DNA of 64,000 bases, from contig NZ_VUNM01000005.1 in assembly GCF_009695655.1 (NCBI RefSeq), positions 24,001-88,000 on the forward strand, written 5' to 3'. The notes under the pieces are model-generated. The model had not been told where the DNA came from. It saw nothing but the letters and a program-made list of their open reading frames with translations, and did not search any database. Within the stretch, counting starts at the first letter, position 1, and the number at the start of each line of letters is the position of its first letter. Shown piece by piece: positions 21,710 to 30,468 of the stretch. The position numbers were made by a program, and so were the translations under genes. The DNA is from Sharpea porci. GTDB taxonomy: Bacteria; Bacillota_I; Bacilli_A; Erysipelotrichales; Coprobacillaceae.

Positions 21710-22224
21710 ACAGTCTCCTATTTTTGTAGTAAATTCTTAATGACAAATAATATCTTATATTTTTCTCAAAAAAATTGATAGTACCAATTAATACTATCAA
21801 ATGATGTTCATAAGACTTCTTGAGATAAGCGTAAGTATAATTTTCTACTTATTTCAGGAAAGTAAGTATTTCGTTAACTTATACCATTTGTCATAATGTC
21901 TCATTTTCCATCTAATGAGAAGATCCTTTTAAGGATGAGTCAAGATAGAACGAGATTCATCACAAGTCAAAGCATTCTCATAGCTTGAATCACCCAAAGC
22001 AAATCATTTTCATAGTATTTACGTTATAAACATTTCATATACGTTGCTGCAAAAAGAATAACATACGCAAAATATTTTATACAGCACCTGAATTTACTGA
22101 TTTCAATTATTCCCTATGTTAGAATTGAATTAGATAACACTATCAATAGTTTAACACTGGGTTTGTTCGCGAAATTTACATAGTCTCTAACGAAATAATA
22201 GTTTTCATAAATTGGAGGTAGAAT
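21710..22224. other. 515-base gene-free stretch with several hairpins
   Basis: No convincing ORF. It contains three inverted repeats: TTGATAGTA/TACTATCAA (21775-21800, with a T run on the minus strand), TCTCATT/AATGAGA (about 21898-21921) and ATCCTTTTAAGGAT (about 21926-21939). It must hold promoters for the response regulator operon (minus) and the 404-residue protein (plus), but I could not pick clear -35/-10 pairs. Confidence 0.5.
21775..21800 (-). terminator. Hairpin upstream of the response regulator
   Basis: TTGATAGTA-CCAATTAA-TACTATCAA, a perfect 9-bp stem; on the minus strand it is followed by seven T. It resembles a terminator in the leader of the two-component operon, or an operator. 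Confidence 0.5.
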
Positions 22225-23439
22225 ATGAATCAAAAAGAAAGCATTATCAGCCCAAACGAACTCACTATAACTAACACTGAAAACGAATTAATAGAGCTTA
22301 CTGAAGATTTGTTAAGAGATGCTAAAGCTTCTATTCATAACAATAAAACATTAAGTGTTCCTATTGCAGAATTATCTACTTTAGGTGCAGGTATTTCTTC
22401 ATTGATTCCAGCATTTAATACAGTTACGCAAACAACATCAATTGCGACAGATGGTTTATACAGAGTTGCAAATTCAGCGGCAGGTGATATTTTAAAGCAA
22501 GCTAAAGATGGTACATATTGGGGAGCTATGAAAACAGCAACTGGCCGTTCTAAAATGGCCAAATTTGCTGAAGTAGGTCCTTTGAATGCAACAACACAAA
22601 CTGTGGCTGCATTCAATCCAGGGACGATGTTAATGGCCGCAGCTCTATATTCTATAGAAAAGAATCTTGATGAAATAAAGAAAACGCAAAAGAAGATCAT
22701 GTCATTCTTAGAAATAGAAAATGAATCGCAAATCGAAGCTGATCTTGAATCCCTTATGAGTATTGTTTCGAATTACAAATATAATTGGGATAACAAGCTC
22801 TCAATAGCAAGTAGTCATAAACTTGTTATTGACATTAAAAATCGTGCTAGAAAAAACATGAATGCCTATCAAAAGAAAGTCACTGATTCACTCTCATCAA
22901 AACAATATGTCGTTGCCCAAGGAAAAATAAATGCATTCCTATCAGAATTAGAAAAGAAATTTAAGTATTACAGATTATCTCTTTACATTTTCTCATTAGC
23001 ATCATTGATAGAAATTATGCTAAGTGAAAATTATAGAGAAGATTATATCTGTAGAATCAAAAAAGAAGTTAAAACAATGTCTGATACATATCGTATGCAA
23101 TTCACTAAAGCTTCTTTGTATTTAGAAAAAATGGCTAATATTGGCATAGAAACCAATATTGTAAAGGGAATAGGAACTGCTGGTAATACTTTGGGAAAAT
23201 TTATTGGGAATATTCCTTTAATTAAAGAAGGTCCTGTTGATGAATTCTTGCAAGATAAAGGTTCCCATTTGCAGAAAAATGCTATGAAAATAGAACAAAA
23301 AGCGATACGTTCATTTGCGACATTGGGCAATCCAGAAACAAGTGTATTTGAAGATAGAATGGATGATATGATTCAAATCTTCAATCATACATCACAAATA
23401 TGCTTTAATCAGGAAAAGATTTATCTAATGACAGATTAA
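22225..23439 (+). CDS. Unrecognised 404-residue protein, helical with hydrophobic segments
   Basis: I do not recognise the family. A strong TTGGAGG site precedes the ATG. Visible features: a low-complexity N-terminus, then Gly/Ala/Thr/Ser-rich amphipathic stretches (ELSTLGAGISSLIPAFNTVT near residue 50; NPGTMLMAAALYSIEKNLDE near 132) followed by a long charged helical region (residues about 145-310, coiled-coil-like, with IKKTQKKIMSFLEIE) and another Gly-rich patch (IGTAGNTLGKFIGNI). There is no signal peptide. A hydrophobic hairpin between long helices recalls alpha-helical pore-forming proteins, but this is only an impression. It lies alone, between the two-component operon and the ABC-F gene, with terminator-like structure and a repeat element after it. 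Confidence 0.8.
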   Translation: MNQKESIISPNELTITNTENELIELTEDLLRDAKASIHNNKTLSVPIAELSTLGAGISSLIPAFNTVTQTTSIATDGLYRVANSAAGDILKQAKDGTYWGAMKTATGRSKMAKFAEVGPLNATTQTVAAFNPGTMLMAAALYSIEKNLDEIKKTQKKIMSFLEIENESQIEADLESLMSIVSNYKYNWDNKLSIASSHKLVIDIKNRARKNMNAYQKKVTDSLSSKQYVVAQGKINAFLSELEKKFKYYRLSLYIFSLASLIEIMLSENYREDYICRIKKEVKTMSDTYRMQFTKASLYLEKMANIGIETNIVKGIGTAGNTLGKFIGNIPLIKEGPVDEFLQDKGSHLQKNAMKIEQKAIRSFATLGNPETSVFEDRMDDMIQIFNHTSQICFNQEKIYLMTD

Positions 23440-23466
23440 GAAAAATGTTTATGATTATTTTTCTAT

Positions 23467-23503
23467 AAATATCTCTGTTTTCTACGAAAAAAAGTTCTAT
23501 GAA
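23467..23503 (+). repeat. Dispersed 37-nt element, copy 2
   Basis: Second copy of the element at 12940-12976 (32 of 37 identical). Here the unit runs on into a strong hairpin whose 3' arm (AACCAATACTTTT) is partly shared with copy 1. Confidence 0.6.
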
Positions 23504-23545
23504 GGACTAATCTCAAATATGTTTCTTTAAAGTTAAATGGATGAA

Positions 23546-23593
23546 AAAAGTATTGGTTGTTGCTTTCTTAATAAGCAATAAACCAATACTTTT
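23546..23593 (+). terminator. Strong hairpin after the 404-residue gene
   Basis: AAAAGTATTGGTT and AACCAATACTTTT pair perfectly over 13 bp, extended by TTGCTT/AAGCAA inside. It ends in TTTTCAT and can serve as a terminator or as the 3' end of a small RNA. Confidence 0.7.
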
Positions 23594-23844
23594 CATATTG
23601 CGTTTTATATTGTTATCGATTGTTTCTTACGAACATAATTTTCGCTCATTTGTAATCATAAAGCCAGGTGATTGATAGAAACAAATTACATTCCTAGTTT
23701 ATCATGCACCCACAAGAATTAAGGATGCTATTCCTGTACTGAAAACTTTATAATATTGAAGCAATACCCTGCCTTTAAACAAAAAGATCAACATATTGTC
23801 AAGATTAGCCATTTTGTTTCAAGACACTTTGACATCCTATTTTC

Positions 23845-25305
23845 TTATAGTTGAATTATTCTTGTTGCGATGGCATCTCGAAAAGCTTTGTCGTGTTCAA
23901 CAAATATCATTGTTGGGGAAAATGCTTTAAGCAGTTGTTCAATTTGCATCCGGGAATAGATATCAATATAGTTAAGAGGTTCATCCCAAACATAGAGATG
24001 TGCTTGGTCACATAGACTTTTGGCAATAAGGACCTTTTTCTTTTGTCCAGCTGAAAAATCCTGCATGTCTTTCTCAAACTGTATGCGTTCAAAGTCCATT
24101 TTTCTTAGTATTGCTTTAAATAGACTTTCATCTAGAGAGTTATCTTGTGCATAGTCAGACAATCTGCCTTTAATGTGTGATGTATCCTGTGGTACATAAG
24201 AAATAACAAGCCTAGAGCCACGTTGTATTGTACCAGTATGTTCAATTGACTCGCCGATTAAAAGCTTCAGTAAACTGCTCTTCCCACTTCCATTTTTGCC
24301 ATCAAGCGCAATACGTTCTCCTTGTTGGATTGTAAATGTAACAGGATCAGATATAACCTTTCCATCATAACAACAAGCAACTTCAGAATAAGAAACAAGC
24401 GTATTAGCATGATATTTTTGTGGTGAAAGTTTGAGATTTTCTACTGTTTCAATATTCTTTAATAGACTTAATTTTTGTTTTATGGCTTGTTGCTGTCTTG
24501 CTTCGATGTTTTTCGAACGCTTCATCATTTTAGCTGCTTTATGGCCTACAAAGCCCTTGTCTGCTGCACCAATTTTTGATGCTTCCACACGATCAGACCA
24601 CTGTGACGAACGCTTTGCGGATTGTTGTAATCTATTGATGTCTTTTTTTAAACGTTTATTCTGGGCGAGTTCAAAGTTTTGTTGTTGTGTGAAGTTTTGC
24701 ATCCAAGAAGAGAAGTTACCACTTTGTACTTCAATAGTTGATCTGTTGAGAGATAAAATGTGATCAACACACCCATCTAAGAAATGACGATCATGTGAGA
24801 CAAGTAGAAATCCCTTCTTCTTTTTCAAATACCCAGCAACAATCTCACGTGCTTCTACATCTAAATGGTTGGTCGGTTCATCAATCAAGAGAAAATGTTC
24901 TTCATTACAAAACAAAGCAGCTAATAAGACCTTTGTCTGTTCGCCATGAGAAAGTGTATTGAATGGTCGATAGAGCACATCAGCTTCCATATCTAAATAT
25001 GACAGTTCTCGCATTAATTCCCATTCTTCAGCCATTGGTGCAACTTCAAGGAATATTTCATTGGTAAGCTTTGTTTTGTCTGCTATAGGATAAGGAAAAT
25101 AATCAAACTCAACAGATGCTTCAATATTTCCATTATATTCATATTGACCAAGTAAGAGCTTTAATAATGTTGTCTTTCCTCTTCCATTCCTCCCAACAAA
25201 GCCAGTTTTCCAATTGCTATCAATCTGGCAATTAACATTTTCAAAGATATTCTCATAGCTTGTTGGATAGGAGAAGGTGAGATTTTCTATTTTAATCATC
25301 GACAT
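23845..25305 (-). CDS. ABC-F ribosomal protection protein (Lsa-like)
   Basis: A 486-residue protein with two ATPase domains and no membrane helices: Walker A GRNGRGKTTLLKLLLG and GKNGSGKSSLLKLLIG, Walker B LLIDEPTNHLD and VWDEPLNYID, and a linker between them (residues about 195-290) rich in basic helix (KRLKKDINRLQQSAKRSSQW). Length and linker match the Lsa/Vga-type proteins, which displace lincosamides, pleuromutilins and streptogramin A from the ribosome. The first signature is degenerate (FNTLSHGEQTK), the second FSAGQKKK, as is common in this group. An attenuator with a leader peptide precedes it. The actual resistance spectrum cannot be predicted. Confidence 0.92.
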   Translation of the reverse strand: MSMIKIENLTFSYPTSYENIFENVNCQIDSNWKTGFVGRNGRGKTTLLKLLLGQYEYNGNIEASVEFDYFPYPIADKTKLTNEIFLEVAPMAEEWELMRELSYLDMEADVLYRPFNTLSHGEQTKVLLAALFCNEEHFLLIDEPTNHLDVEAREIVAGYLKKKKGFLLVSHDRHFLDGCVDHILSLNRSTIEVQSGNFSSWMQNFTQQQNFELAQNKRLKKDINRLQQSAKRSSQWSDRVEASKIGAADKGFVGHKAAKMMKRSKNIEARQQQAIKQKLSLLKNIETVENLKLSPQKYHANTLVSYSEVACCYDGKVISDPVTFTIQQGERIALDGKNGSGKSSLLKLLIGESIEHTGTIQRGSRLVISYVPQDTSHIKGRLSDYAQDNSLDESLFKAILRKMDFERIQFEKDMQDFSAGQKKKVLIAKSLCDQAHLYVWDEPLNYIDIYSRMQIEQLLKAFSPTMIFVEHDKAFRDAIATRIIQL

Positions 25306-25414
25306 AATATGATACTCCTTTCAATTTTCAAAATTTATAAATTCAACACTAACCTATATCACTAAAACCATATATGCCAACTTTTCTCCATTCTCATTAG
25401 TACCACTTCCTTTC

Positions 25415-25608
25415 AAAAAAAGAGAGCTGCAAGAAATTCATTCTTACAGCTCTTCATAGCAAAATAAAGCCCTTTAATAGGGACAATTAACTATATTGAG
25501 ATGAAATAGACTTATAACTTTCTTGCAACAGGCATAGTTGTACTATTAAAAGTACAACCACATCTTCCAGTTTTATTTGCAAGAAAAGTTAATCATCCTT
25601 CCACCTCT
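25415..25608 (-). promoter_or_regulatory. Transcription attenuator of the ABC-F gene
   Basis: In transcript order: a leader ORF (25573-25596) containing arm 1 (AACTTTTCTTGCAA, 25577-25590), arm 2 (TTGCAAGAAAGTT, 25516-25528), and a terminator hairpin (25424-25452, GAGCTGTAAGAA with TTTCTTGCAGCTC) followed by a T run (25415-25420). Arm 2 can pair either with arm 1 or with the TTTCTTGCA of the terminator's 3' half. A ribosome held on the leader ORF would free arm 2 to break the terminator. A further hairpin (GTTGTACT/AGTACAAC) lies between arms 1 and 2. Confidence 0.8.
25573..25596 (-). CDS. Leader peptide MINFSCK of the ABC-F gene
   Basis: A 7-codon ORF directly behind the strong site GAGGTGGAAGG. 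Its last codons form arm 1 of the attenuator, so the position of the ribosome decides the downstream fold. Short leader peptides of this sort are known before other antibiotic-inducible ABC-F genes; the peptide itself is not recognised. Confidence 0.7.
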   Translation of the reverse strand: MINFSCK

Positions 25609-25621
25609 TTCTATTAGCTAT

Positions 25622-25650
25622 ATTCTATCACATATTCAATTAATAATCAA
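25622..25650 (-). promoter_or_regulatory. Promoter of the ABC-F leader
   Basis: TTGATT (25645-25650) and TAGAAT (25622-25627) on the minus strand, 17 bases apart, shortly before the leader peptide's ribosome site. Confidence 0.65.
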
Positions 25651-25978
25651 GCACTACCTTATTTACAGTATTCTTCTAATCTCTTCTTTATTTCACAAAA
25701 GCTTTCCAACATTAGTTTTATATTTCTTTTGAAAATTTACAACAAAATCATCTACATTGCTTATTTTAGTTATACATAATTATATTGCACAAGTTTTCTT
25801 ATTCACCCGCTATTATTCTTTTATAAAGCTGTAAAAAATAGTATCTATAATTTTGTGGTACTAAGTTAAGTTTGAGAATAACTTCAACGTCTTTTCTATG
25901 CTGCTAACTTGTAACTACCTCGGTACTCTTTTTATATACTTCAGGATTATATAGGACAATACAGATAAAATCGCAAAA
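25651..25978. other. AT-rich gene-free stretch at the edge of the accessory patch
   Basis: Only short broken frames on the minus strand (for example one giving MLESFCEIKKRLEEYCK). No assignable feature; probably decayed DNA. Confidence 0.5.
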
Positions 25979-26128
25979 TCACTTTCTTAAAAACTGGGTG
26001 GTATTTCCGTCCTTAACTTTTATGGCTCTCCTAAATTGTGTTAGGCTCATATTAACTCCTACACTACTATAAATGGCAATTTTATTTGTTTCTATTTCAT
26101 TTATCTGAACTTCAAGAGAAAGCGTCAT
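25979..26128 (-). pseudogene. Short remnant ORF after the TA module
   Basis: The frame reads MTLSLEVQINEIETNKIAIY then SSVGVNMSLTQFRRAIKVKD and ends at QFLRK, and remains open upstream into the toxin gene end. There is no ribosome site. It looks like the 3' end of a lost gene. Not recognised. Confidence 0.3.
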
Positions 26129-26156
26129 GCCTCTATAAACATGAATAGGTTTAATC

Positions 26157-26474
26157 TTAAAGGCCTCGGATAATACTTAAGTAATCTTGTCTCTGGTCTA
26201 CCACTGCATAAACTGTTACAACTTTTTTGTCATCATCAACTTTATAAAAGACAAGATCTTTTTCTAAAATAAGTCCTAAATATCCTTGACGCTTTAACAC
26301 ATTGTATCTTGGGTGTACACCGATGTAAGGATTCTCCCCCAAATTCATAATAGATTTTTCCAAATAATCCAATTTCTCAAGTGCTACGTCGTTTCCAAAG
26401 TTCTGAGCTATTAACAAAACTATATGACGAATTAAGGAATCCGCTGTATCCGTTCTTTCAACTTTATACTTCAA
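26157..26474 (-). CDS. RelE/ParE-type toxin (second TA module)
   Basis: A 105-residue toxin-fold protein: KVERTDTADSLIRHIVLLIA, LEKLDYLEKSIMNLGENPYI and the C-terminal strand block YLGLILEKDLVFYKVDDDKK, VVTVYAVVDQRQDY. This pattern fits the RelE/ParE superfamily. The start lies two bases after the antitoxin stop. It shows little resemblance to the toxin at 12267 beyond fold-level pattern, so the two are separate acquisitions and not a recent duplication. Confidence 0.85.
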   Translation of the reverse strand: MKYKVERTDTADSLIRHIVLLIAQNFGNDVALEKLDYLEKSIMNLGENPYIGVHPRYNVLKRQGYLGLILEKDLVFYKVDDDKKVVTVYAVVDQRQDYLSIIRGL

Positions 26475-26476
26475 GC

Positions 26477-26755
26477 TTAGCCCTCCTTAAGTATCTTTCG
26501 CAAATCATCGAATGTATCCTTAATCGGAGCTACTCTTCTACACCTAACATCTTCATCAGCTTCAGCCAGGATTTCTAAAAGTTCTATTCTAGCCTTCATT
26601 CTCTTATATTCTTCATAGCCAAGAGAAACTGTATCACCTCTTCCATTTACTGTGATGATTACAGCCTCATTATTTTCACGGCACTGTTTTGATACTTCGT
26701 TATAATGATTTCTAAGATCTGCTGATGGGCGAATTATTTCTTTTAATTCATACAT
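26477..26755 (-). CDS. Phd/YefM-type antitoxin (second TA module)
   Basis: About 92 residues: IIRPSADLRNHYNEVSKQCR and EAVIITVNGRGDTVSLGYEE form the Phd/YefM DNA-binding dimer fold, followed by a helical toxin-wrapping tail. Start ATG 26753-26755 lies nine bases behind GGAG; an ATG three codons earlier overlaps that site. Should repress its own promoter together with the toxin. Confidence 0.86.
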   Translation of the reverse strand: MYELKEIIRPSADLRNHYNEVSKQCRENNEAVIITVNGRGDTVSLGYEEYKRMKARIELLEILAEADEDVRCRRVAPIKDTFDDLRKILKEG

Positions 26756-26903
26756 TATTATCATCTCCGTTCCTTGATAGACACATTATATCGCTATATG
26801 TCTATTGTTTCAATTCATGAGTTGTTTTTACAGCAGCAATGTAACCCTAAAGGTATAGGCATAATTTATTTTTATACATATCAATAGTTGTAGACATAGG
26901 AAA

Positions 26904-27140
26904 TCAATCTTCACCTGACGCACCCCCAGTTGTCAAGAAATCCTTGACAACTGATTTCTTATTCAACTCTCCTTCTTTAAAACAATTATTTGCATGCAAA
27001 CTCACATTTTGTTTTGTTGTATCAAATAACTCTGCCATTTGAGCTTGCGAAAGCCATACCGTATCTCCATCCATCGGCACAGACAATGTCACTTTCTTAT
27101 CAGATGTTTCAAATAAAATTATCTCATTATTCTGTTCCAT
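26904..27140 (-). pseudogene. RhuM-type protein, N-terminal fragment
   Basis: 78 residues match only the start of RhuM-family proteins (normally over 300): NEIILFETSDKKVTLSVPMD, DTVWLSQAQMAELFDTTKQN and VVKDFLTTGGASGED, then a stop. The N-terminal part is a helix-turn-helix-like domain; the catalytic or effector remainder is missing. It overlaps the preceding helix-turn-helix gene by 14 bases, suggesting they were once co-transcribed. Confidence 0.75.
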
Positions 27141-27378
27141 CTATATCCTCCCTCCTGACACTTCCCTTATCTTCTAAAATCTTTTCCATTTTGGAATAAT
27201 ACAATATCAGTCTCAAAACATAGTCTGGCATCTTTCTTCTTCCGGCTTCCCATTCCTCTAATGTACGAAGCGGAATATCCATATATTCGGAAAACTGTTT
27301 ACGATTAAGTCCCAAATCCGCTCTAATATTCTTCAAAGTTTCTATCTGGTTTTTTAATTCTTCTTTTTTTTCTCCCAT
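27127..27378 (-). CDS. Helix-turn-helix (XRE-like) regulator
   Basis: An 83-residue protein with an Xre/antitoxin-type motif: LNRKQFSEYMDIPLRTLEEW, EAGRRKMPDYVLRLILYY. Relatives often accompany toxins or mobile genes. It overlaps the RhuM fragment and has a good GGAGG site (AGGAGGC). Target unknown; it may regulate this patch. Confidence 0.8.
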   Translation of the reverse strand: MGEKKEELKNQIETLKNIRADLGLNRKQFSEYMDIPLRTLEEWEAGRRKMPDYVLRLILYYSKMEKILEDKGSVRREDIDGTE

Positions 27379-27588
27379 GATAGCCTCCTATGTTAGCCAC
27401 TCATTGTGTGGTTTTATTGTAAAACGAAATTTTGAACTTTTCAACTATATAAGAAAGCAATTTCCTATGATACAAAAAAGTGGAGATTTCTCTCCGCCTA
27501 AATAAAAACCTATTATTTTATATATTCTCTTTTCATTTTTTGTGCTGAAAATCAATGATTATAAACACCCCCATTTACAATCCATTTA

Positions 27589-28421
27589 TCAAATTGTTTT
27601 CTTTACTCTTGTCACCATTGGCTTTTCTTTACATTCTTCAACTATTTCAAGTTCTCCACGCTCCACAAAGCAAAGAACCCGCTCATACAAAGAAAAATCT
27701 CCAACCATTAATTCGTATACTCCCATTACATCTCCTACTAACCTGGCAATTGTAAATTTTTCCGGGAGCTTAATTGTCGTATTTCTGATAAATGAATCCA
27801 GGAAATCTTCCGGTAAACTTACAAGATTTCCGCTAACCATAAGTCTCATCGGTGCGTTTTCCTTGCAAAGTTCTTTCCACCTATCAGAACAAATCTCAAT
27901 CTGCTTTTTTGTAATTTCCTTTTCCAACTTCAGTGCTTCATAATACATTTCAGGCCCAAGCATGGCCGTTCCCCGACAATAATAAGAACCGGTCCAATAA
28001 TCCGGTGGAATAAATACTGTACTGATATTCTTATAATATTTTTGGCTATCCAAAAAACTCATAAGCCAATAGAAGGCATTTATTTCATCAGGAGCACTGC
28101 TATACCATATTCGTATTTCTTCCTCATTTTTATGGCAATTTTAAATTCCTGTAAATATTTATTATTCTTCTTTTTTAAATCATCAATCCAATCTTTGGCA
28201 AGAGATCCGGCTATTCCCGCTGGATACATAGTACTTATACTTTTATATAAATACTGATATCTCCTGTCAGACGGAATTTTTTCAGATATATCCCCAAAGG
28301 CAAGATTATATTCCAAACAGGTAATATCGTTTGCACCCATTGAGTTTTCCCCTATTCCTACATCTTGAGCAGCTCTTAAACTTGCTCCCACACTAAGTCC
28401 AAATACGATCTCCTTTTTCAT
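27589..28421 (-). pseudogene. DUF1835/DUF3658 protein with a single frameshift
   Basis: The first part starts MKKEIVFGLSVGASLRAAQD and passes the ISEKIPSDRRYQYLY block; a second frame carries IRIWYSSAPDEINAFYWLMS and the C-terminal DUF3658-type half (RLMVSGNLVSLPEDFLDSFI). The frames join if one A is added to the run at 28127-28131, which would restore about 275 residues. The family is widespread in Firmicutes but has no known function. A recent mutation or a sequencing error in the A run are both possible. Confidence 0.75.
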
Positions 28422-28444
28422 TTATTATTATCCCCTTTTTTCAT

Positions 28445-28525
28445 TTAGCATAATAACTTTCCAAATTTGAAAGAACCATTATCACCAGCCTGACTTCTAA
28501 ACTCCTCGAATTCGAGGGCCTTCAT
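28445..28525 (-). CDS. Possible 26-residue ORF before the DUF1835 gene
   Basis: ATG behind ATAGGAGTGATT; reads MKALEFEEFRSQAGDNGSFK then FGKLLC and a stop, 20 bases before the DUF1835 start. The good ribosome site and the tight spacing favour translation, but the peptide may be a truncated protein. Not recognised. Confidence 0.35.
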   Translation of the reverse strand: MKALEFEEFRSQAGDNGSFKFGKLLC

Positions 28526-28831
28526 AATCACTCCTATATTATGCTATATCTGTAAAAGAAATAAACTCATTTTCCAGAATCATTTTAGAATCAATCATAG
28601 AATCATAATAAAAAAGGACCGGGAACGAACGCTCTCAACCCTTGATATTACTGGTTTTCTATACACTTGCAAACCACTTGGAACTACTCACTCGTTATTC
28701 CATCTCTAGAAAGGCATCAATATCTTGCGAAATTGATTTTCTTTTATAGCTATATGTTGTTGTAGTTTTACGTTTATTCCATCGATTTTTTTGCTTTTTA
28801 TGACTTTTTGCAACCAAAGCGCAATCGGAAA
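28526..28831. other. Gene-free stretch in the accessory patch
   Basis: Short broken frames only. On the minus strand 28615-28680 encodes a basic fragment (YRKPVISRVESVRSRSF) of unknown origin. No operon signal identified. Confidence 0.45.
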
Positions 28832-29152
28832 TTAATAATCTTCTTTCAGTCTCTTTTCAATATCAGAGGCACTGTATAATACTCTAGTTACCGTGATAGT
28901 CTCGTCCTTGAATACATAAAATATCGAGTAATTATTTGCCAGCATTCGCCTAAGCCCTTGCGAGCGTTCTGGTTCAAAATCTACCAGTCTGAATTTCTCT
29001 GGGAAAAAGCCAAGTTCGAGTGCAGCATCAGCTATTTTGTTGTACTGGCCCATAGCATTTTCCAGCGATTGCAAATTCAATGCGATATATTCATATATCC
29101 CATTTATATCTGTCAGTGCTTTATCAGTGATTTTTACAGCATATTCTCTCAT
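28832..29152 (-). CDS. RelE/ParE-type toxin (third TA module)
   Basis: A 106-residue toxin: YAVKITDKALTDINGIYEYI at the start, ENAMGQYNKIADAALELGFF in the middle and NNYSIFYVFKDETITVTRVL, YSASDIEKRL at the end, the ParE/RelE pattern with a C-terminal arginine-containing strand. Its start overlaps the antitoxin stop by four bases (ATGA type), implying translational coupling. Confidence 0.87.
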   Translation of the reverse strand: MREYAVKITDKALTDINGIYEYIALNLQSLENAMGQYNKIADAALELGFFPEKFRLVDFEPERSQGLRRMLANNYSIFYVFKDETITVTRVLYSASDIEKRLKEDY

Positions 29153-29454
29153 TTGTGACTCTCTCTAAAAGCTGCAAATGCTGACTTTGCATCCTGTACA
29201 CGGCCTGCTTCAATATCATCAAAGCCTTCCTGTAATTTTGTATGAATCTCTGCAGTTGTCATAAGATCTGCATTAATAGCATCTGGAGCCTGCGGTAATA
29301 CTACTTTAAACGGAATACCTCCTGTAAGCGTAATCTGCTTTAAATACATATCAATAGCTGTAGACATTGGGATTCCAAGACGTGAAAGTACATCTTCAGC
29401 CGCTTTTTTCGTTGAAGGATTAACTCGTAAATTAAGTGTTGCTGTTTTCTCCAT
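29149..29454 (-). CDS. RelB/DinJ-type antitoxin (third TA module)
   Basis: A 101-residue ribbon-helix-helix antitoxin: TATLNLRVNPSTKKAAEDVL, SRLGIPMSTAIDMYLKQITL and TGGIPFKVVLP are the textbook DinJ/RelB start, followed by a helical tail. It should bind the toxin and the operator immediately upstream. GGAG precedes the ATG. Confidence 0.93.
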   Translation of the reverse strand: MEKTATLNLRVNPSTKKAAEDVLSRLGIPMSTAIDMYLKQITLTGGIPFKVVLPQAPDAINADLMTTAEIHTKLQEGFDDIEAGRVQDAKSAFAAFRESHK

Positions 29455-29477
29455 ACTATCAACTCCTCTTTATTTAA

Positions 29478-29500
29478 TTGTAACGCTATTTGCGTTACAA
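29478..29500 (-). promoter_or_regulatory. Operator TTGTAACGC-TATTT-GCGTTACAA of the DinJ-type module
   Basis: A perfect 9-bp inverted repeat 24 bases before the antitoxin start, well placed for autorepression by the RelB/DinJ protein. Confidence 0.7.
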
Positions 29501-29608
29501 TACAAGGCGCGTTTGCACCTTTATCGCTTGGTTTTATCATTTGCAAGCAATAGTGAATAAAACTATTACGGCATTTATTGCTTCACTTATTACGGCAACT
29601 TAATTATG

Positions 29609-30066
29609 TTATGCTTTGCACTTCGCCTCAGCATTCCATTCATTTCCACAAAGCTTACAGCACACTGCGACCTTATTATGTCGACTTTTATACTCTCCTA
29701 TAACTTCAACATTAGGATTGCTGTCAGTCATTTCGTTGACGAATTCGAACTGCGTTTTTCGAACACTTGAATGAGCCTTCTCAGTTCCACATTTTCTGCA
29801 CCCATATCCTTATAATAATTGTGCTGGTATAGCATTCCACTCATTATTACACTTACGACAGCGTACATGTATCCGTATATTGACATTAATAAAATGATCT
29901 ATAACCTCTATATTTTGATTAATCTTATAAAGCTTTTCAACAAACTCTTTATGAGTCTGAGCCCTTGACGCAACAGCAGCCTTTATTTCTATCATTTCCC
30001 ATTCATTATCTGTAAAATGAACATCGACATTCCTGTCATGAAGTAGTTCAATAGTCAGTTTTTTAA
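29609..30066 (-). pseudogene. Treble-clef zinc-finger repeat protein, interrupted
   Basis: One frame reads THKEFVEKLYKINQNIEVID, VRCRKCNNEWNAIPAQLL, then TAA, and continues with GYGCRKCGTEKAHSS, TQFEFVNEMTDSNPNVEVIG and CCKLCGNEWNAEAK to a second stop. The repeated unit (HxEFVxK..NPNIEV..VxCxxCGNEWxA) is a zinc-ribbon domain seen in phage and mobile-element proteins linked to endonucleases. No start codon or catalytic domain is present; this is a remnant. Confidence 0.65.
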
Positions 30067-30468
30067 TTCAGAATGGTTTCCAGAATTCAAATCAATATTT
30101 TAACATTATGCAATCGCTTTGACATGGTGATACTATCCCACTAGGCATTGATTATATATTGTTATCAAACTTATTTCTGCTCTCTGACATTTTTCTCGTT
30201 TTTTTGCATCACGATTAATGCTTCGACTATGAACAAACCAATTTCTTAATATATAAAAAATGCGTGGGAAGAGAATCAATTCTTCTCACGCATCTTAAAT
30301 GCCTTTGCTTTTTCTATACTAATAATATCATTGCTATTCACCCGTGTTTATGTCCAATGTCGGTCAAGACAGGACGAAGCGAGACAAGGTTTCATTTCCC
30401 TGATAACAACTTCTGCAACCAAAGAATTTGAAGGTCCAGTATTTATGCCCGTTTCCAGCGATAATACA
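30067..30468. other. Gene-free stretch between accessory patch and guaA
   Basis: Contains the guaA terminator (30260-30293). Between it and the guaA stop lie about 170 bases with no intact ORF; no riboswitch recognised. This is an unusually long 3' untranslated region, possibly the scar of an insertion. Confidence 0.5.
30260..30293 (-). terminator. Terminator downstream of guaA
   Basis: ATGCGTG...CACGCAT, extended inside by AAGA-type pairing around a short loop, with six T following on the minus strand. Confidence 0.8.

Follow-up and report, generated by a model that had tools for sequence, protein, structure and literature searches.

A probable ribosome-controlled attenuator upstream of an lsa-type ABC-F gene in Sharpea porci and its relatives

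The lsa locus and its leader

The window, i.e. the whole stretch of 64,000 nucleotides of the Sharpea porci genome analysed here (contig NZ_VUNM01000005.1, forward strand, positions 24,001 to 88,000), carries on its minus strand a gene for an ABC-F ribosomal protection protein. With 761.2 bits against the NCBIfam profile NF000167 (cut-off 750) the product is a full-length member of the Lsa family, and its nearest solved structure is that of Lsa(A) (7nhk); a bona fide ABC-F resistance gene is hence located directly downstream of the leader described below. A plus-strand ORF of 404 amino acids without Pfam match (22225-23439) lies beside lsa, and on the other side it is adjoined by a DUF3658 protein and by two toxin-antitoxin pairs of type II, ParE/Phd and ParE/RelB (26157-29454). 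The latter stretch falls within a segment of about 8.6 kb (21798-30440, comprising lsa and the two toxin-antitoxin pairs) which, save for a weak match, is missing from the congener assembly, where contig breaks prevent the empty site from being displayed; a search of the same assembly yielded no lsa. Within the host family the closest lsa is 60% identical, compared with 70-87% for Clostridia from other families. Judging from these comparisons, the lsa segment was likely, though not provably, acquired by the host lineage.

Read 5′ to 3′ on the minus strand, the region consists of a promoter, a ribosome site, the upstream open reading frame (uORF) MINFSCK*, a hairpin, arm 2, a spacer, the terminator, a remnant ORF and lsa. 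The promoter, strong ribosome site, seven-codon ORF, three arms and terminator listed by a previous sequence-only reading were all recovered on this strand between 25650 and 25415. The individual features are as follows (positions within the window).

25622-25650, minus strand: promoter; -35 TTGATT (25650-25645), 17-base spacer, extended -10 TG-n-TAGAAT (25627-25622)
25601-25607, minus strand: Shine-Dalgarno sequence (SD) GAGGTGG of the leader ORF, read from the sequence; in the repressed fold its partner is 25506-25498
25573-25596, minus strand: leader ORF MINFSCK*, seven codons and stop (ATG ATT AAC TTT TCT TGC AAA TAA)
25577-25592, minus strand: arm 1, TTAACTTTTCTTGCAA, within the leader ORF; partner of arm 2 (anti-antiterminator)
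25534-25562 (ends approximate), minus strand: apical hairpin P2 in the interval between arms 1 and 2, from the fold and strong covariation
25515-25529, minus strand: arm 2, GTTGCAAGAAAGTTA; partner of arm 1 or arm 4
25498-25506, minus strand: TTTCATCTC; partner of the leader ORF ribosome site in the repressed fold
25441-25453, minus strand: arm 3, the terminator 5′ half, from terminator search and covariation
25423-25441, minus strand: arm 4, comprising the terminator 3′ half and loop bases; its positions 25441-25426 form the antiterminator with arm 2
25415-25421, minus strand: U tract of the terminator, from terminator search
25362-25397, minus strand: remnant of a second module, ORF MRMEKSWHIWF*, from alignment with L003, L004, L007, L008 and L025
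25315-25320, minus strand: lsa SD AAGGAG, read from the sequence
23845-25305, minus strand: lsa-family ABC-F ribosomal protection protein, 486 amino acids, from family profile and nearest structure

The intrinsic terminator (25453-25423 plus U tract) forms 13 pairs and is the only one within 600 bases, where 0.1 would be expected; lsa starts about 110 bases past it with its own SD. A generic promoter scan did not rise above chance (5 found versus 3.8 expected). The score of the window promoter was matched or exceeded in 3% of shuffles, and a -10 element with at least five of six matches recurs at the same spacing in 43 of 54 leaders.

Arm 2 can pair with the uORF over 10 consecutive positions, followed by four more beyond a one-base bulge, or alternatively with the terminator at 15 of the 16 positions 25441-25426. 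In 2000 shuffles of the sequence downstream of the retained uORF, the score of the first pairing was reached 53 times and that of the second 4 times, but never both at once, which corroborates the earlier proposal that the middle arm pairs either with the leader ORF or with the 3′ half of the terminator. The classical 2:3 arrangement, i.e. pairing of the middle arm with the terminator 5′ half, was considered and dropped, as arm 2 resembles arm 3 and complements arm 4. The folding energy of the leader RNA is -68.6 kcal/mol, compared with -39.5 ± 4.3 for shuffles (z = -6.76), and the repressed fold closes over the ribosome site of the uORF itself, a point which had escaped the sequence-only reading; in 47 of the 54 leaders the mean pairing of this SD exceeds 0.5. 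Two features of the transcription attenuators of ABC-F resistance genes are present: a short uORF with its ribosome site at the transcript start, and an anti-antiterminator, an antiterminator and an intrinsic terminator that exclude one another.

Conservation and covariation in related leaders

The best 80 lsa homologues in public genomes were collected, each with its upstream DNA. A ribosome site followed by a short M-x-x-F-S-C-K/R-type uORF, 190-410 bases upstream of lsa, was found for 55 of these 80 closest homologues; the pattern used for this first set demanded Cys in the final or penultimate position and therefore inflates the apparent conservation of the peptide. The uORF MYKFSC* or a similar one is present in another seven genomes from the family of the host. 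After removal of duplicates nearly all leaders displayed the same arms at similar distances, with L044 and L036 hard to place. Evidently, leader peptide and fold are not specific to this locus, as had been supposed, but occur in most of these homologues, in the family of the host and with plasmid-borne lsa(E) (see below).

A covariance model (R1), which covers only the part from the uORF to arm 2 and excludes the terminator, matched whole genomes in 18 of 43 cases within the host family and in 11 of 392 within a sample of the phylum. All 24 loci other than that of the window are situated directly upstream of an lsa-type ORF, which in two of them is cut by the contig end after 35 codons. Distant matches contain other uORFs (MKTVSYR*, MSDFPDKK* and forms of 13 codons) and yet keep complementarities and layout, as read by eye; likewise by eye, the uORFs of L103-L105, L139 and L141-L143 are longer or changed. 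In codons 2-6 of the leader 9 departures from the consensus were synonymous and 59 were not, so that, bearing in mind the Cys-biased search pattern, conservation at the level of the peptide is unsupported. Together with the complementarities kept by the divergent uORFs, this ratio argues that RNA pairing rather than the peptide is under selection; the amino acid sequence of the leader peptide probably does not matter in itself.

For covariation analysis 37 leaders were aligned, L044 and L036 being omitted for want of a reliable placement of their arms. The RNAalifold consensus comprises the uORF:arm 2 helix, the apical hairpin and the terminator, with compensatory changes in 24 of 36 pairs. 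The arm 1:arm 2 helix is 96% paired with double changes in 6 of 14 pairs (0/500 shuffles), and the terminator helix 93% paired with double changes in 10 of 13 pairs (0/500 shuffles). The arm 2:arm 4 helix is 95% paired with double changes in 5 of 13 pairs, a count reached by 13 of 500 shuffles, while its covariation score and cells were reached by none; given the resemblance between arms 1 and 4, some of this signal is a consequence of the other two helices. For all three helices the numbers of paired and of doubly changed cells as well as the covariation scores remained unreached in 500 shuffles, and sliding one partner by 1-3 columns roughly halved the pairing. The covariation of the three arms in relatives, which the sequence-only reading had named as a decisive check, is thus observed for every helix. 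Furthermore, the bases of the terminator loop, dispensable for the terminator itself, are still complementary to arm 2 in 34 and 36 of the 37 leaders.

Many clostridial and Bacillus lsa loci (L007, L009, L025, L081, L056 and others) contain a second module after the terminator, 60-150 bases upstream of lsa. Its uORF encodes M..VVTHDLLRI(S/V).., the codons of which form the inverted repeat CTCCGTATA/TATACGGAG, and is followed by a hairpin adjoining the lsa ribosome site; the module looks like an erm-type translation attenuator. In the window and in L008 this module, M..VVTHDLLRI.. in intact relatives, was lost through frameshift and deletion, whereas L003 has the second module alone, without the first. 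Neither the module nor its decay had been recognized in the sequence-only reading.

Several individual leaders are worth recording. The 200-base lsa leader is identical in seven records that carry different genus names (L009 and L013-L018: Faecalicatena, Anaerostipes, Fusibacillus, Clostridium, Agathobaculum and two MAGs), pointing to recent transfer or spread of the gene. L138 and L144 represent two lsa leader copies in one genome, each at a contig end, and one of the two shows an internal duplication or insertion. In L055 a deletion has fused the uORF to arm 2 (MSNLFCAVVPIARKLKVYSLDIL); this naturally broken attenuator should be informative on constitutive or lost expression.

Modelled ribosome stalling and competing explanations

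A stalled ribosome was modelled by a 31-base mask over the leader AUG and its surroundings at the stage where arm 4 has just been transcribed. As long as arm 1 was free, the probability of the antiterminator was close to zero in almost every leader. With this mask it exceeded 0.5 in 46 of 54 leaders, compared with 1 of 54 for the free RNA, and control masks over the apical hairpin or the spacer had this effect in only 1 and 0 of 54 leaders, respectively. Leaders outside the alignment mostly reached 0.8-0.99 with the mask, exceptions being, e.g., L091 and L098. For the window the antiterminator rose from 0.00 to 0.86 on masking (0.63 with a longer 5′ end). Here it was favoured for about 6 nucleotides of elongation only, and the terminator won once its base emerged; in the full-length RNA at equilibrium the terminator was still dominant with arm 1 masked (P ~0.97), unlike in L061, L040 and lsa(E), which retain the antiterminator at full length. 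The fold with and without arm 1 blocked, proposed along with the sequence-only reading, gives a divided answer: in the window the antiterminator is favoured while arm 4 emerges, but a free arm 2 would not suffice on its own for read-through. A simple equilibrium model is ruled out for the window copy, in which the switch must therefore be kinetic, relying on kinetics or pausing. The window copy may be a weaker form, for which a G/A mismatch in its antiterminator offers a visible reason, and it may be poorly inducible.

The anatomy, the alternative pairings, the covariation, the conservation of the unit before lsa genes and the computed switch are what the analysis shows, and with a probability of about 0.82 we regard the leader as a ribosome-mediated transcription attenuator of the vmlR/cplR kind which controls the Lsa-type ABC-F gene. 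In the absence of drug the ribosome would clear the seven-codon leader ORF, arm 1, formed by the leader codons, would pair with arm 2 and cover the leader ribosome site, and arms 3 and 4 would make the terminator, so that transcription would end ahead of lsa. In known relatives lincosamides, streptogramin A and pleuromutilins cause stalling at the start codon of the uORF (PMC12421871, PMC9226507, PMC10201436). By analogy, a peptidyl-transferase drug of these classes would hold the ribosome at or just past the leader start codon, where its footprint would hide arm 1 and leave arm 2 unpaired. Arm 2 could then capture arm 4 as it leaves the RNA polymerase, and the polymerase would continue into lsa owing to the delayed terminator. 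This pairing would start from the terminator loop; as the loop is transcribed ahead of the 3′ half of the stem, arm 2 would be given a head start. The identity of the drug, the position of stalling and the actual read-through are the parts of this scheme that we infer.

The transient antiterminator of the window would also be in line with a degenerate, mostly closed attenuator, leaky or constitutively low and hardly responsive to drugs, which would have arisen after acquisition of the gene via the antiterminator mismatch and loss of the second module. The many relatives which, like lsa(E), keep the antiterminator at full length, the decay of the second module in the window and its sister L008, and the lack of the lsa segment in the congener assembly speak for it. 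However, uORF, ribosome site, arms 1-4, U tract and promoter are all intact, and the switch still computes as arm 4 emerges, so that we judge such a degenerate state unlikely for this genome.

That the region merely combines a fixed intrinsic terminator with an unrelated hairpin would agree with the terminator of the window winning at equilibrium in all states, but is very improbable: the likeness of arms 1 and 4 and the complementarity of arm 2 to both are kept across 54 leaders, the terminator-loop bases stay complementary to arm 2, and the antiterminator is released by masking arm 1 and not by masking other stretches. Sensing of cysteine or of the general translation rate, i.e. amino-acid attenuation instead of a response to antibiotics, was suggested by the Cys codon, which is the last or next-to-last in the commonest uORF form. 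This position was imposed by our own search pattern, however; a single Cys codon is involved, it is absent from the distant members MKTVSYR* and MSDFPDKK*, and every match of the model precedes a drug-protection gene and none a cysteine gene. We rejected this explanation as scarcely credible.

Known ABC-F leaders and plasmid lsa(E)

Attenuation based on a uORF has been described for vmlR (MIN), cplR (MRI), lsa(A) (predicted MAGN), tiaA/are5sc and others (PMC9226507, PMC10201436, PMC12421871). The vmlR leader of Bacillus subtilis combines the uORF MIN with an anti-antiterminator, an antiterminator, a terminator and an SD-sequestering hairpin (PMC9226507). It shares with the window a very short uORF in the first hairpin that opens AUG-AUU-AAC, three alternative structures and an ABC-F target. 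In contrast, the window uORF comprises seven codons which themselves constitute arm 1, its arm 2 captures the 3′ half and loop of the terminator, and an intact SD-sequestering hairpin before lsa is lacking. The window leader does not belong to the vmlR leader family proper (uORF MIN* plus SL-4 hairpin), as its uORF runs on after MIN and the module separating terminator and lsa has decayed. The cplR leader of Clostridioides difficile, with the uORF MRI (PMC10201436), is similar in its clostridial ABC-F gene, a uORF sequestered in a 5′ hairpin and a terminator ahead of the gene; it differs in that its terminator stem contains the SD of the gene, implying translation attenuation as well, whereas the lsa SD of the window is separate. 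For lsa(A), likewise an Lsa-family gene with a predicted uORF, MAGN is different from that of the window (PMC10201436). This prediction covered close LsaA homologues only (80% identity cut-off, PMC10201436) and for this reason did not extend to the clostridial type. Leaders of the Bacillus-type lsa/lsa(B) also place a uORF and a terminator upstream of an lsa gene, but with another sequence, other arms and a uORF of the MIN* type; the leader of lsa(B) itself is of this Bacillus type and not of that of the window.

The Rfam model RF02452 (‘Bacillus sRNA ncr1575’) matches L147:470-686, the lsa leader of a Priestia plasmid with the uORF ATGATTAACTAA (MIN*), at 148.6 bits, and the ncr1575 ‘sRNA’ may represent transcripts terminated at an ABC-F attenuator. 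In the window the RF02452 covariance model found no match, and Rfam as a whole gave no credible match for the window leader at gathering or permissive thresholds. Nor was a description of this leader type encountered in the open-access literature searched. The family of the window leader, which also precedes the lsa genes of many gut bacteria, is apparently undescribed so far and without Rfam entry, within a known kind of control.

The leader of lsa(E) on enterococcal plasmids (L146:575-937) exhibits the uORF MYNFSC*, the arms and the terminator, and is a member of the same RNA family (56.1 bits against R1, E = 1.9e-9). It was located via the gene and the covariance model; a DNA similarity search of plasmids with the whole leader had matched the gene alone and no leader. 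Its computed switch goes from 0.00 to 0.92, and in contrast to the window the stop follows directly after Cys and the antiterminator is stable at full length. The lsa(E) upstream region was matched in 111 plasmid records, mostly from Enterococcus and 109 of them with at least 99% identity; among the matches listed none carries an annotated feature at the leader. It seems to us an even bet that a single mobile, undescribed family of RNA switches, selected for its RNA pairing and not for its peptide, controls lsa across Clostridia and the host lineage and has reached enterococci and other hosts together with plasmid lsa(E), in which case lsa(E) would be drug-inducible by means of a leader from gut commensals.

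The covariance model provides a means of finding lsa-type genes with this leader. The shared leader further suggests that the uORF codons are conserved for their role as one arm of the RNA rather than for a peptide that stalls the ribosome; this fits drugs whose stalling at the start codon depends little on sequence. Whether a resistance gene appears in a standard susceptibility test is determined by drug-inducible expression, and as plasmid lsa(E), which is of clinical relevance, has its leader in common with lsa genes on the chromosomes of gut bacteria, the inducibility of lsa(E) can be tested directly.
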